Source of the DNA: Chloroflexota bacterium
Lineage (GTDB): Bacteria; Chloroflexota; Anaerolineae; UBA1429
Direction: 5' to 3'
NCBI GenBank assembly: GCA_012729455.1
Contig: JAAYDC010000029.1
Location: 62,001 to 126,000 of the forward strand
Length of the DNA: 64,000 nucleotides
Positions 36,837 through 43,014 of the stretch are shown piece after piece. The notes below the pieces were generated by a model, which made no database searches, was not told the origin of the DNA, and saw only the letters and a program-made list of their open reading frames with translations. Each line of letters starts with the position of its first letter. Position 1 is the first letter of the stretch. Position numbers and translations under genes: made by a program.

Positions 36837-37220
36837 TTATGCTTGCCCGCGTGCTACCTGCCAGGCGCGTTTGACGGCCGGCAGATAGTTGGCCACGAAC
36901 AACCCGGCGGTGTATTCATCGCCCACCAGCCGCAGCTTGCCCGACATATAGGCGCTTTCAGGATCTTGGCGGCCTGATAGGATGTCATCCAGCAGTTTAA
37001 AGGTGCTTTGCACGCCGATCGTCACCGGGTCGGCGTCATCCAGGGAGCTGTTGATCTCATTTTTAGCAAAACGCAGCGTGAGCGTGCCGGGCATGTCGGT
37101 AAAGGTAAAGCGGATCGAGGCCGGTGAGCGGGTATAGCTCGTGGCGGATTCAGCTTGAGCCTGCAACTCGTCATTAAAGCTGCGGAACAGCTCATCCAGG
37201 GTTTGGCGGTTGTTGGTCAT
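36837..37220 (-). CDS. SCP2 sterol-binding-domain protein
   Basis: A 127-residue single-domain SCP2-like protein. The fold pattern is visible as a beta-strand-rich N-half (ASIRFTFTDMPGTLTLRF), the segment DPVTIGVQSTFKLLDDIL and the helix SAYMSGKLRLVGDEYTAGLF, which is the typical YMsGKLKveGD element of this family. SCP2 proteins bind fatty acyl chains or other lipids in a hydrophobic tunnel. ATG at 37220 is chosen (GGAGGATCTGACC) over the in-frame ATG five codons upstream, which overlaps the ribosome site. Its neighbour is a patatin lipase. Confidence 0.82.
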   Translation of the reverse strand: MTNNRQTLDELFRSFNDELQAQAESATSYTRSPASIRFTFTDMPGTLTLRFAKNEINSSLDDADPVTIGVQSTFKLLDDILSGRQDPESAYMSGKLRLVGDEYTAGLFVANYLPAVKRAWQVARGQA

Positions 37221-37246
37221 GGTCAGATCCTCCATATGACACTGTT

Positions 37247-37341: not shown

Positions 37342-37369
37342 TTGCCTAATCACTTAAACTTGCTACAAT
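37342..37369 (+). promoter_or_regulatory. Promoter of the Dlt-like operon
   Basis: TTGCCT (37342-37347), spacer of 16, TACAAT (37364-37369), 27 nt upstream of the GTG at 37396. It covers the alternative in-frame start at 37339 and so excludes it. Confidence 0.6.
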
Positions 37370-37395: not shown

Positions 37396-38911
37396 GTGAC
37401 GAGCAACGTCTTGGCGTATTTGTGGGCCGCGCGGGCGCTGCACCCCAACAAGCCCGCCCTGCTCGACGAAGCGCGCAGCCTCACATATGCAACACTGGCA
37501 GAGATGGTACGTGCCGGCGGCAGCAGCGTGGCGCAGGCTGCTCCGCCCAACGCACCCGTGGCGGTGCTGACAGAGCGCTCGGCGCTGCAGCCGGCCGCCT
37601 TTTGGTGCGCCACTGCGGCGGGCTGCCCGTATGTGCCCCTCGACGTGAAACTGCCCGCGGTGCGTCTGGCTCAGATGCTCAGCATCACCCAGCCGGCCGT
37701 GGTATTGGCGGATGAGGCCGGGCTAAAGCCGGCCGAGCAGCTCGATATCCGCGCTCGGTTGATCGCACTCGACGAGGCGTTTGCCGCATCCCCCGACGAC
37801 GCCCTTCTGGAAGAGCGCCGGCGCTCGGGCCAGCGACCCGCTGTATGTGGTCTTTACCTCGGGCTCGACCGGCACCCCCAAGGGGGTGGCCGTCAGCCAC
37901 CGCAACGTGATCAGCTTTATCGAGGAATTTGTGCCCGTGGTAGGCCTGGGTGCGGATGACGTCCTCGGAGGGCAGGCGCCCTTTGATTTCGACATCTCCG
38001 TCAAGGACCTTTACAGCACGATCAAGTGCGGCGCGACGCTGTGCGTCATCCCGCGCAGCTACTTTTCCGTGCCGGTCAGGCTGCTGGCGTTCCTGAGCGA
38101 GCAGCGCGTCACCACGCTGATCTGGGCGGTCTCGGCGATGAGCATCCTGGCGACCCTGAAAGCCCTGGATGGCCGTTCGCTGCCGGATTTGCGCCGCGTG
38201 CTGTTTTCCGGTGAAGTGATGCCGATCAAGCATCTGGCATACTGGCGCGAGCACGTGCCCCAGGCATGCTACACCAACCTGTACGGCCCCACCGAGATCA
38301 CCTGCAACTGCCTGTATTATCACGTGCCCGAGGACGCGCTGCCCGAGACCCTGCCGCTGGGGGTGCCCTTTGCGAACGCCCGGGTGCTGGTGCTGGATGA
38401 AGCCGATCAGGCCTGTGCCGCCGGCGAGATCGGCGAGTTGTGCGTGGCCGGCGAGGGCGTCGCGCTGGGATATTATGACAACCCCGCCGCCACTGAGCGC
38501 GCCTTTGTGCAGAATCCGCTCAACCACACGCTGCCAGAACGCATCTACCGCAGCGGCGACCTGGCCAGCCGCGGCCAGGACGGGCTGTACTATTTCCACG
38601 GCCGGCGAGACAGCCAGGTCAAGCACATGGGGCACCGCATCGAGCTGGGCGAGATCGAGGCGGCCGCCGAAAGCCTCGAGGCAGTGGAAGCCAGCTGCTG
38701 TGTCTATCGTGCCGACGAATCCCGCATCGTGCTGGTGTATGCCGCCGCAGAGCCCCAGGACGAAGCCATCTATGGCGCCATCCGCGCGCGCCTGCCGGGC
38801 TTTATGCGCCCGCATCGATTGGTATGGCTGGAGGCGCTGCCGCGCAACGCACGCGGCAAGGTCGACCGCGCCAGCATCTGGCAGGAATACGGCCATGCAG
38901 CCAGTCGCTAA
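37396..38911 (+). CDS. DltA-like carrier-protein AMP-ligase (frameshifted)
   Basis: An adenylate-forming enzyme of the DltA/NRPS-adenylation family, about 505 residues if intact. The first part (37396 to about 37820) reads from GTG (GGAGAGGG upstream) through LTERSALQPAAFWCATAAGC. Near 37820 the frame shifts by one base (one extra or two missing). The second frame carries the core: YVVFTSGSTGTPKGVAVSHR (P-loop), YGPTEITCNC, RIYRSGDL and the C-terminal GKVDR with catalytic Lys. It would load an amino or other acid onto the carrier protein encoded three genes down. The shift may be genuine decay or a sequence error, since both halves are otherwise conserved. Confidence 0.8.
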
Positions 38912-39716
38912 CCTGAATATGTGGTCGGAACTGATGCGCGATCTGCGCGAGGACGGCCGGCGCAGCAACTGCTACCTGGTGCCATCCAGCGCCCAGCGCC
39001 TGATCGATGCCGGGTGGCTGTGGTACAGCCGCGCGCAGGAGGATGTGTATCTTTATGTCGACCAGCCCTTTTGCTGGCGGCTCTTTTATGGGCTGAGCGA
39101 GCATCCCGCCAGCATGCCCGAGCGCCCCGGCAAACCGCTGCTGATCGAGCTAGTCGGCCGCTCGCCCGTCGCCGAATCGCCGGCGGAACTGGCCGCCATG
39201 CGCGCAGCCGGGCTGGTGCATCACAAGACCAGCCAGCACTATAACGCCGATCTGCGCCAGTTCGACGCTCTTGCGGAGCGTCTTGTGCGTGCCCAGCAGC
39301 GCGTCGCTCAAGCCGGCTACATCCTGCAAACCGCGGACGGCAGCCAGGCTCAGGCGATCGCCGCGCTGTGGCAGAGCGAGCTGGATCCCTGCGACCTGGC
39401 ACACCCCCTGCCCGGCGACGCACGCGATGTCGAGACCCTCGCCGTGGTGGACGGCGCCGGCACTTTGGTGGGGGCGATGATCTATAACCTGGGGACGGGC
39501 GCCAGCCTGGCAGAGCATGTGACGGTGGCGCCGCATGTGCGCGGGCAGGGAATCGGGACGCTGATGTTGCTGAGCTGGCAGCAACGTGCCCTGGCGCACG
39601 GCCGCAACACGGCCACCTGCTGGATTGATGTCACTAGGCGCGCCTCCCAGGGGCTCTTTGGCAGTTGCGGGCTGCAGCCCGTAGCACGCTATGCACACCA
39701 GTATATCCTGGATTAG
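38895..39716 (+). CDS. GNAT-family acyltransferase with N-terminal extension, in Dlt-like operon
   Basis: A 273-residue protein. Residues about 130-270 are a GNAT domain: the acetyl-CoA loop VRGQGIGTLMLLS near residue 215 and a C-terminal GLFGSCGLQPVARYAHQY strand. Residues 1-125 form a separate domain (SNCYLVPSSAQRLIDAGWLW and further) without clear identity, perhaps a degenerate GNAT half. The ATG at 38895 follows CAGGAATACGG and overlaps the end of the ligase gene by 17 bases; the frame further upstream is a shadow. An acetyltransferase is not part of the classical Dlt system, so it may modify the loaded acyl group or the carrier-bound product. Confidence 0.75.
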   Translation: MQPVANLNMWSELMRDLREDGRRSNCYLVPSSAQRLIDAGWLWYSRAQEDVYLYVDQPFCWRLFYGLSEHPASMPERPGKPLLIELVGRSPVAESPAELAAMRAAGLVHHKTSQHYNADLRQFDALAERLVRAQQRVAQAGYILQTADGSQAQAIAALWQSELDPCDLAHPLPGDARDVETLAVVDGAGTLVGAMIYNLGTGASLAEHVTVAPHVRGQGIGTLMLLSWQQRALAHGRNTATCWIDVTRRASQGLFGSCGLQPVARYAHQYILD

Positions 39717-39725
39717 AGGTAGGAG

Positions 39726-39953
39726 ATGGACAAACTGTTAGATATCCTGCAAGACCTGCGCCCCGAGGTCGATTTTGAGTCCGAGCAAGCCCTGATCGAT
39801 GACGGCCTGCTGGATTCGTTCGATATCGTCACGCTGGTGAGCGATATCCGCGAGACCTTTGGGGTTGAGGTGGGCATCGACGATCTGGTGCCAGCCAATT
39901 TTAACTCGGTGGCGGCCATGCAGGCCCTGATCGAGCGCCTCGAACGCGCCTGA
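39726..39953 (+). CDS. Acyl/D-alanyl carrier protein (DltC-like)
   Basis: A 75-residue four-helix carrier protein. The phosphopantetheine attachment site is Ser31 in LLDSFDIVTLV. Acidic helix 2 and length fit DltC-type carriers. Start ATG overlaps its AGGTAGGAG ribosome site closely. It should carry the acyl group activated by the upstream ligase to the membrane acyltransferase encoded ten bases downstream. Confidence 0.88.
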   Translation: MDKLLDILQDLRPEVDFESEQALIDDGLLDSFDIVTLVSDIRETFGVEVGIDDLVPANFNSVAAMQALIERLERA

Positions 39954-39963
39954 GGTAAACGCC

Positions 39964-41541
39964 TTGTCACTGACCTCGCTGTGGTTCTATGTGCTGGTAG
40001 CCGTCCTGCTGGCGGTGTATTACATCACCCCCGGCAAGGCACGCTGGGTGGTGCTGCTGATTGCCAGCTGGGGCTTTTACCTGCTGGCCGCCAGCCAGTA
40101 TGCCCCCTATCTGGCTGCCACCACCTTTAGCACCTGGCTGGCCGGGCGCCTGATGGGGCGCGAACAGGTCCGCCTGGATGCCCAACTGGCTGACGACGGA
40201 GAGCGCAAGGTGCTGCAGGCCGCCAGCCGCAAGCGCAAGGCGCGCATCTCTGCCGGGGCGATCCTGCTCAATGTGGCGGTGCTGGCGACGGTCAAGTACG
40301 GCGGTTTTGCCGCGTCCAACCTGAATGTGCTGCTTGATGCGATCGGCCGCGACTGGCGCGTTCCGGTCCCCGAGCTGCTGATCCCGCTGGGGATCTCGTT
40401 TTACACCTTTCAATCGCTCAGCTATGTGATCGACGTCTACCGGGGCAAGATCGAGTCGCAGCCCAACCTGGCGCGTTATGCCCTGTTTGTGGGGTTCTTT
40501 CCTCAGATGGTGCAGGGGCCGATCGGGCGTTATGACGCACTTGCTCCGCAGCTGCTGGCCGCCAACCGCTTTGATTTCGAGCGCATCAAGGACGGGCTGG
40601 GCCTGATGCTGTGGGGGTTCTTTAAAAAGCTGGTGATCGCCGACCGCGGCGCGTTGATCGTCGCAAATATCCTCTCCAACGGTGATACTTATCAGGGGCT
40701 GTATGTGCCGCTGGCGATGGTGCTGACGGCTCTGCAGGTCTATTGCGACTTTTCGGGCGGCATCGATATCGTCACCGGCGTGGCCGAGATGTTTGGCATC
40801 CAACTGGCGACCAACTTCCGGCGCCCCTATCTTGCGCAGTCGGTGCCCGAATACTGGCGCCGCTGGCACATCACGCTGGGTGCCTGGATGCGTGATTATG
40901 TCTACTATCCGCTGGCGCTGTGGCCGCCGCTGGCGCGCGCCGGACGCTGGCTGCGGCGTGCCGGGCTCAAACGCCTGGGGGTGCTGCTGCCGGCCATGAC
41001 GGCCGAACTGGTGGTGTTCGCCGTGATCGGCATCTGGCACGGCGCCGAGTGGAAGTGGCTGGTATATGGCCTGTATTACGCGATACTGATCATCCTGGGT
41101 TTGGTGCTGGGGCCATATGCGACCAAAGTGGGTAACGCCCTGGGCCTGCGCGATGAGCGCTGGAGCACCAAGGCTCTGCGCATCACGGCGGTCTTTGCCC
41201 TGGCTTGCATGGGGCGCTATATCACGCGCGCCGACAACTTGAGCCACACCTGGGAGCTGCTCCTGCGCACCAAGGCGGCGTGGAACCCGTGGATACTCAC
41301 CGACGGGTCACTGTGGACGCTGGCCGGCTCGAACAACGAGACGCTGGTACTGCTGGCGGCGCTGGGCCTGCTGGGGGTGGTAAGCGTGCTGCAGGAGCGC
41401 GGTTTTGCGCTGCGCGAGCGCATTGCTGCCGGCGGACGGGCGGCGCAGTGGTCAGTGATCATTGTTGCGATTGTGGTAGTGGTGTTATTTGGGGTCTACG
41501 GGCCGGATTACCCCAGTGTGTTCGTCTATGAGTTGTTTTAA
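39964..41541 (+). CDS. MBOAT-family membrane O-acyltransferase (DltB/AlgI-like)
   Basis: A 525-residue polytopic protein, about 11-12 membrane segments, longer than DltB (about 400) and closer to AlgI in length. Seen: IPLGISFYTFQSLSYVIDVY (about 141-160), the MBOAT motif EYWRRWHITLGAWMRDYVYY near 296-315, and the catalytic His359 in IGIWHGAEW. It would move the acyl group from the carrier protein across the membrane to an envelope glycan. The start is TTG at 39964 with GAGGTAAACG upstream, ten bases after the carrier gene. Confidence 0.9.
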   Translation: MSLTSLWFYVLVAVLLAVYYITPGKARWVVLLIASWGFYLLAASQYAPYLAATTFSTWLAGRLMGREQVRLDAQLADDGERKVLQAASRKRKARISAGAILLNVAVLATVKYGGFAASNLNVLLDAIGRDWRVPVPELLIPLGISFYTFQSLSYVIDVYRGKIESQPNLARYALFVGFFPQMVQGPIGRYDALAPQLLAANRFDFERIKDGLGLMLWGFFKKLVIADRGALIVANILSNGDTYQGLYVPLAMVLTALQVYCDFSGGIDIVTGVAEMFGIQLATNFRRPYLAQSVPEYWRRWHITLGAWMRDYVYYPLALWPPLARAGRWLRRAGLKRLGVLLPAMTAELVVFAVIGIWHGAEWKWLVYGLYYAILIILGLVLGPYATKVGNALGLRDERWSTKALRITAVFALACMGRYITRADNLSHTWELLLRTKAAWNPWILTDGSLWTLAGSNNETLVLLAALGLLGVVSVLQERGFALRERIAAGGRAAQWSVIIVAIVVVVLFGVYGPDYPSVFVYELF

Positions 41542-43014
41542 ATGAACATACGGCGCTACGCGTGGGTGATCGAGCTGCTGGCGGCCAGTGTGGTTGTCCT
41601 GTTGGTGCTGTACACGATCAACCACACCGTAATCAAGCGTGACAACCTGGGCTATTCATCGCTCAGCCGCACTTTGCCCGATTACTATGCCCAGCCTGCG
41701 GATAGCGTGGATGTGCTGCTGCTGGGCACCAGCAAGACAATGTCGGGGTTGATGCCGGCTATCCTGTGGCACGAGTATGGCATCAGCTCGCACTTGCTGG
41801 CGGGCACAGGCCAAGCCCCGCTCCTGAGCTACTATTTGCTGGAAGAAGCGCTCAAGAGCCAGCATCCCAAGGCGGTGGTGGTAGAGGGCAACATGCTCCT
41901 GCGCATCAACAATTTGGATTATCTCGACGAAGCCTATTACGCAACGATCGACCACATACCGCTCTCGCTGACCAAGATCAAGCTGGCACTCGAGATGTGG
42001 AGTTATGCCGAATACGCCTCGCCCGAGGTCACCCTGTTGCCATTTATCCGATATCACCAGCGTTGGCTCAAACTCACAAAAACCGACTTTGTGCTGGATC
42101 CCATCTATCGCCGCAGCCTGCACGGCGCCTGGCTGTGGCCGGCCAGACGAGTCCAGCTGGCGGAAGGCTATATGGCCATCGATGACGGAGGAGCAGCGAT
42201 CGTCGATTTTGCCGGCATCTATATGCAGCGCATCGCCGACCTGTGTGCACACGAGGGCATCCAGCTGGTGATCGTCAACATGCCGGATCAAAACTGGAGC
42301 ACCTCCCGCTCCGACCTTACCATGGCGTGGGGACAGGAACGCGGGGTGCCTGTTATCGAGCTCAACGACTCGGATAACATGGCCGAGCTTGTGCTCGAAC
42401 CAGGGGTTGACCTGTTCGACCCGAGCCATCTCTCAAAGGAAGGCGCCGTAAAAGCCACCCGCATCGTGGGCCGCTTTTTGCGCGACGCCGGCGTGCCCGA
42501 TCGGCGCGGCACCGCGCTGGAAGCCGAGTGGAACCTTGACTATGACTTTTATGAAGCATACAGGCGGGTGGTCGATCTGCGCGACACTACCGATCCCGGT
42601 ACCTGGCTGCAGTTTGTCAACAACCCCGACTACACCGTGCTGATCGTCTCACGCCTCGATATGACAGAGGCGCTGGTGGGCGACGTGCCCTGGCTGCTGA
42701 GCCAGCTGGGGGTGAAAGCCAATCTGACCGCCACGCCGACCTGGTCGTACATTGGGATCGTGCGCGGCGGGCAGACCATCTACGAACAGTTTGAGGATGA
42801 GCCGATCACCTACGATACTGACCTGGCGGACGGCCGCCATGTGCGCATCTCGAGCAACACCGACGAGCCCAATCCCAGCATAGTGCTGATGGATGGTATC
42901 CACCAGGGCGGCGGACAGCAGGGAATCACATTCGTGGTATATTCGCACCAAATGCGAAGCGTGGTGGATGTTATCACGCTGAACTCCAGCCCGCCGAGGC
43001 ACTTTATACGCTAG
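41542..43014 (+). CDS. Membrane-anchored SGNH-hydrolase-like protein (DltD/AlgJ-like)
   Basis: A 490-residue protein with an N-terminal membrane anchor (about residues 8-25) and an extracytoplasmic SGNH-type domain: nucleophile Ser64 in LLLGTSKTMSG and the D-x-x-H dyad Asp293/His296 in DLFDPSHLS. DltD and AlgJ/AlgX-like partners of MBOAT proteins complete transfer of the acyl group to the polymer. A further C-terminal domain of about 170 residues (from EAEWNLDYDFYEAYRR) is of unknown type. Its ATG directly abuts the stop of the MBOAT gene, so the two are cotranslated. It ends four bases inside the convergent amidohydrolase gene. Confidence 0.82.
   Translation: MNIRRYAWVIELLAASVVVLLVLYTINHTVIKRDNLGYSSLSRTLPDYYAQPADSVDVLLLGTSKTMSGLMPAILWHEYGISSHLLAGTGQAPLLSYYLLEEALKSQHPKAVVVEGNMLLRINNLDYLDEAYYATIDHIPLSLTKIKLALEMWSYAEYASPEVTLLPFIRYHQRWLKLTKTDFVLDPIYRRSLHGAWLWPARRVQLAEGYMAIDDGGAAIVDFAGIYMQRIADLCAHEGIQLVIVNMPDQNWSTSRSDLTMAWGQERGVPVIELNDSDNMAELVLEPGVDLFDPSHLSKEGAVKATRIVGRFLRDAGVPDRRGTALEAEWNLDYDFYEAYRRVVDLRDTTDPGTWLQFVNNPDYTVLIVSRLDMTEALVGDVPWLLSQLGVKANLTATPTWSYIGIVRGGQTIYEQFEDEPITYDTDLADGRHVRISSNTDEPNPSIVLMDGIHQGGGQQGITFVVYSHQMRSVVDVITLNSSPPRHFIR

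Follow-up and report, generated by a model that had tools for sequence, protein, structure and literature searches.

The window analysed here, a stretch of 64,000 nucleotides from a Chloroflexota genome of 2.64 Mb, carries on its + strand, between positions 37396 and 43014, five consecutive genes for an AMP-forming ligase, a GNAT protein, a stand-alone carrier protein, an MBOAT protein and an SGNH protein. We read them, with a probability of roughly 0.55, as a Dlt-like operon for the carrier-dependent acylation of the cell envelope, in which the acyl shuttle is built into the MBOAT and the acyl group is tailored on the carrier. Within open-access papers this operon is so far undescribed, as neither a GNAT in a dlt-like operon nor carrier-dependent MBOATs outside Dlt were found in that literature. 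The features are collected in Table 1.

Table 1. Features of the operon (positions in the window)
Feature	Position	Strand	Basis
Promoter-like site, TTGCCT-16-TACAAT with extended -10	37342..37369	+	pattern match
Ligase, N-terminal part (AMP-binding)	37396..37959	+	PF00501 2.6e-13; match to sister ligase 37405-37821
Ligase, C-terminal part, other frame, pocket DIKILSLCNK	37781..38911	+	PF00501 3.1e-46, PF13193
Tandem GNAT, 273 aa; degenerate half ~1-139, catalytic-type half 140-273 with RGQGIG loop	38895..39716	+	PF00583, model
Stand-alone carrier, DSFD phosphopantetheine site	39726..39953	+	PF00550 4.9e-5
MBOAT, 525 aa, His359, C-terminal FVYELF acyl-shuttle motif (Tyr522)	39964..41541	+	PF03062
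Membrane-anchored SGNH acyltransferase, GTSK and DPSH motifs, C-terminal ILEI-like domain from ~residue 350	41542..43014	+	alignment, model

The GNAT gene starts (38895) before the ligase gene stops (38911), giving an overlap of 17 nt, and the gaps that follow measure 9 nt (GNAT to carrier), 10 nt (carrier to MBOAT) and 0 nt (MBOAT to SGNH), so that the arrangement is operon-like. These coordinates agree with the order and the tight packing described in an earlier note made from the sequence alone. The same note had placed the genes behind one promoter. A single promoter-like site ends 26 nt upstream of the ligase start, and a single promoter driving the operon is plausible, yet the shuffled region yields 1.9 sites of this kind, so that the pattern, though well placed, is not above chance. 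Divergent from the operon lies an SCP2-like gene (36837-37235, - strand), and its homologue in the sister genus (L028, 4-498) has the same location.

The ligase requires a separate comment. Its region (37396-38911) spans 1516 nt, which is no multiple of three, and the two parts given in Table 1 are in different frames, a break that was missed when the ligase was taken for a single reading frame in the earlier note. Compared with the sister-genus orthologue, which is intact (L028, 545-2119), the first part shows 43% identity and the second 57%, and the coding match to this orthologue stops around 37821 and resumes at 37832. One explanation is that the operon is decaying in this strain, the frameshift being real and the pathway off. 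The difference in frame at 37821-37832, the lack, in the 99%-complete host genome, of any further ligase copy that could stand in for the broken one and the rarity of the operon in the host phylum speak for such a decay. We nevertheless consider it unlikely, while keeping it in mind, because the remaining genes of the operon are all intact, the new frame past the break stays free of stops for 1.08 kb with a coding-like GC pattern, and a one-base assembly error is an equally likely origin. The break would be either an assembly error or a recent mutation, and with the ligase frameshifted in the assembly, the pathway may or may not operate in this particular strain.

The order of the genes is more than a product of chance, because it is found again in the sister genus (a Chloroflexi MAG, L028 and L037), in another family of the class (L035, with the complete operon in genome G213) and in many Clostridia. 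When 400 genomes of the phylum were drawn and searched with a GNAT profile at E 1e-8, only three matched, the host included; a search of viral contigs with the GNAT gave no match. Of the other two matches in the phylum, one is G213 (L035), and the second, L036, was discarded as a relative of the operon, its tandem GNAT being unrelated. Outside the phylum, the nearest MBOATs come almost exclusively from Clostridia, with a GNAT close to the MBOAT in 18 of 80 such loci. Ten Clostridia loci were picked among 391 genomes by the GNAT profile alone, ignoring the MBOAT. All ten showed ligase, GNAT, MBOAT and terminal gene in this order, and nine of them had the carrier between GNAT and MBOAT. In most of the GNAT-bearing loci, the GNAT gene begins 11-29 nt before the end of the ligase gene. 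The survey of genomes that the earlier note had proposed thus finds that the five-gene order recurs, and that relatives do carry the GNAT, though most of the wider MBOAT family is without it. The operon is beyond chance and is not specific to Chloroflexota, as it recurs widely in Clostridia. On a tree of the MBOATs, the presence of a GNAT changes about five times, compared with 25.7 for shuffled labels, and the window protein groups with that of L037 near the GNAT-bearing Clostridia, a position that suggests transfer of the operon between phyla.

A first indication of what the ligase may load came from its pocket. The residues, among them those at positions 235, 239 and 331, were read through an alignment to GrsA. 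Position 331 is Asp or Asn in 25 of the 27 ligases accompanied by a GNAT and in none of the 49 that are not, an association inflated by relatedness, given the roughly five changes of the GNAT label on the MBOAT tree. Asp235, the ligand of the free alpha-amine of the amino acid, is retained in 25 of the same 27 ligases, which argues that a free amino acid would be loaded and acylated afterwards. As for the side chain, two Clostridial codes (DGKQLGLVDK and DAKLTALVDK) resemble the code for Glu, and that of the window (DIKILSLCNK) does so less. Lys239 gives a hint of a substrate with an acidic side chain; it is also present in most ligases without a GNAT, and it was therefore rejected as proof of glutamate. 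The loaded amino acid would perhaps be acidic or polar.

The predicted structure of the GNAT (pLDDT 90) consists of two consecutive GNAT-fold halves across residues 1-273. In fold comparisons the whole length aligned with mycothiol synthase MshD (2c27), with a Z of 19.1 and an rmsd of 4.1 over 251 residues, and with MAB_4324 (7q3a), also with a Z of 19.1. What had been described as a novel N-terminal domain is, on this match, the first of the two GNAT halves in degenerate form, and a novel domain was accordingly rejected; the canonical acyl-CoA loop RGQGIG is confined to the C-terminal half. No membrane segment was seen in the GNAT sequence, so that the protein would act before export. Most likely, it N-acylates the amino acid bound to the carrier before export, a role favoured by the fact that its presence tracks position 331 of the pocket and that Asp235 is kept, and by its match to mycothiol synthase, which N-acetylates an aminoacyl amine. 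The earlier suggestion that the GNAT acetylates the carrier-bound amino acid is strengthened by the pocket association and by the finding of all ten GNAT-selected loci inside the operon, while the chemistry itself is one that we infer. Its substrate could instead be the free amino acid or some other amine. Two other roles were weighed. As a supply enzyme, the GNAT would acylate the free amino acid, or make another building block, before loading by the ligase, with the rest of the pathway as proposed. Free small molecules are common GNAT substrates, and in L101 and L106 the GNAT has genes for a dehydrogenase and a transketolase as neighbours, an arrangement like that of a pathway for building blocks; the retention of the ligand for a free alpha-amine in nearly all ligases of the GNAT-bearing type speaks against this role, which we regard as improbable. 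Alternatively, the GNAT might be an aminoacyltransferase that moves the amino acid from the carrier to a cytoplasmic amine, in the manner in which FemX and MprF proceed from tRNA, the MBOAT exporting something else off the same carrier. The tandem GNAT fold is indeed common to MprF and to aminoacyl-tRNA-dependent peptide synthases. However, the C-terminal half bears the canonical acyl-CoA loop, the nearest folds are those of acetyl-CoA enzymes and no second MBOAT substrate can be seen, which makes this proposal very improbable.

Acylation on the carrier would have a counterpart in a sister branch, whose ligases lack Asp235 (pocket IARCCSQASK). In the two loci examined there (L064, 6801-7982, and L051, 2925-4103), a PLP decarboxylase is encoded between carrier and MBOAT, and in the biosynthesis of vicenistatin the enzyme VinO decarboxylates an amino acid while it is bound to a carrier (PMC11284099). 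Considering this slot and the VinO precedent, different branches of the family appear to tailor the carrier-bound acyl group each in its own way. Two GNAT-bearing operons (L101, 5064-7760, and L106, 703-3312) also have a second ligase, as well as genes for a short-chain dehydrogenase and a split transketolase.

The carrier scores under the cut-offs of the NCBIfam AmcB and DltC models, and a phosphopantetheinyl transferase is encoded in the host genome. The MBOAT histidine is invariant (H359 in the sister alignment), and the C-terminus reads FXYXX(F/Y) in almost every MBOAT of the family, a few having an altered last residue. In PatA, the tyrosine of the C-terminal FXYXXF motif becomes acylated and serves as donor for the SGNH partner (PMC12148441). 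The MBOAT was rightly called AlgI-sized in the earlier note, which missed the specific meaning of this size, namely a fused acyl shuttle. A carrier and the fused shuttle motif occur together in nearly every locus surveyed in the family. For the model of the SGNH protein, DltD was the best Foldseek match, and the comparison with 3bma gave a Z of 12.3 and an rmsd of 4.9 over 238 residues, a result equalled by other SGNH enzymes. In the sister genus, two SGNH genes stand in tandem (L028, 4825-5883 and 5896-7398), and one of them lacks the C-terminal domain. In the commonest type of GNAT-less Clostridial operon (pocket DAKCAGLGMK; L045, L049, L065, L068, L089, L096 and others), the position of the SGNH nucleophile is occupied by Cys (GDC), not Ser, and a nucleophile of this kind would form a thioester intermediate.

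With respect to the polymer that receives the acyl group, a teichoic acid was considered and is unsupported, because the CDP-glycerol transferase family (PF04464) is absent from the host genome, though an LCP-type ligase is encoded there. This agrees with the earlier view of the acyl group and the polymer as open questions in a lineage without known teichoic acids. The extra C-terminal domain of the SGNH protein, noticed at that time, corresponds to an extension of about 140 aa. It does not match the ILEI/FAM3 model (PF15711, cut-off 27 bits) in the window, and it is homologous to a domain that does pass it in L037 (29.3 bits); the L101 protein reaches 38.6 bits. The start of the profile matches near the end of the domain in L037 and the rest from the front in L101, as in a circular permutation. 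FAM3 and POMGnT1 relatives bind GlcNAc (PMC9802357). In 15 GNAT-bearing Clostridia loci, the terminal protein aligned as an SGNH-like part joined to a polysaccharide deacetylase part, and PF01522 matched in all six such proteins scanned. The deacetylase part is of the PgaB/NodB type (L053, 6260-8116; L072, 7168-8994; L088, 9575-11485; L137, 3475-5301; and 11 others). The fusion suggests that one glycan may be deacetylated and then reacylated. Together with the ILEI-homologous domain of the window protein, it points weakly to a glycan of GlcNAc type as the target.

The chemistry that we infer, down to the identity of the amino acid, of the acyl donor and of the polymer, could be integrated as follows. 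Briefly, the ligase would activate an alpha-amino acid other than D-Ala, whose side chain is perhaps acidic or polar, and load it onto the carrier, where the tandem GNAT would N-acylate (most simply, N-acetylate) its amine in the cytoplasm. The acyl group would then be moved across the membrane by the MBOAT and received by Tyr522 in the FVYELF motif of that protein, from which it would pass to the SGNH serine and finally to a polymer outside the cell. This polymer may be a glycan that contains GlcNAc and is bound by the C-terminal domain. We tentatively extend this scheme to a class of envelope modification, in which a carrier-loaded amino acid would be tailored, by N-acylation through a GNAT or by decarboxylation in the sister branch, and delivered by an MBOAT tyrosine shuttle to a glycan, whose accepting amine could in some Clostridia be freed by the fusion of transferase and N-deacetylase. 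If this is true, the envelope decorations would be N-acyl-aminoacyl groups, which are so far undescribed. Members of the family occur widely among Clostridia of the gut and the rumen, and the family brings in an enzyme able to alter the acyl group before export; many commensals would then bear at their surface amino-acid derivatives that have not been sought, and genes for testing this are available in a cultured strain. An intact relative of the operon, with ligase, GNAT and carrier, is present in Chakrabartyella piscis (L039, 5287-7975).

The system most similar in content is DltXABCD, which likewise joins in one operon a stand-alone amino-acid ligase and carrier, an MBOAT and an SGNH protein with a DltD-like fold. 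The DltABCD logic invoked in the earlier note stands to that extent, and it might be argued that the window encodes an ordinary D-alanylation system with an accessory GNAT. However, the curated models are missed by far. On the DltA model (TIGR01734, cut-off 559.85 bits), the intact sister orthologue reaches 295 bits and the second ligase piece of the window 216.6 bits; the carrier scores 25.4 and 32.2 bits on the DltC models TIGR01688 (cut-off 52.35) and NF003464 (cut-off 68), respectively, and the MBOAT 153.4 bits on the DltB model TIGR04091 (cut-off 375). A D-Ala ligase, and with it a true Dlt system, was set aside as improbable on these cut-offs. The pocket comparison with DltA that had been proposed also showed a difference, DIKILSLCN in the window against DLMTLCTVA in DltA. 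Moreover, the extra GNAT sets the operon apart, the genome has no PF04464 member, and the shuttle tyrosine belongs to the MBOAT itself, whereas in Dlt the shuttle motif is carried by the separate microprotein DltX (PMC12148441). We consequently give an ordinary Dlt system hardly any credence and retain the reading of a Dlt-like operon with a fused shuttle and on-carrier tailoring.

PatAB and AlgI-AlgX share with the window an AlgI-sized MBOAT that ends in FXYXXF and is paired with an SGNH protein (PMC12148441). There, the donor is an acyl-CoA, and the non-Dlt MBOAT/SGNH pathways are, according to the same authors, without a carrier protein, whereas the family described here encodes a ligase and a carrier beside the MBOAT, for which a donor role is predicted. 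D-alanylation is regarded as the carrier-protein route among MBOAT-SGNH systems, and this family combines a carrier with a fused tyrosine shuttle. The VinN/VinL/VinO set resembles the first steps proposed, with a stand-alone adenylation enzyme, a carrier and an enzyme that tailors the loaded amino acid, but it feeds a polyketide synthase and tailors by decarboxylation, instead of serving an envelope acyltransferase through a GNAT (PMC11284099). Finally, mycothiol synthase MshD is built, like the GNAT of the window, of two GNAT halves and N-acetylates an aminoacyl group, while sharing only 11% identity with it and acting on a free small molecule, with no carrier protein involved.
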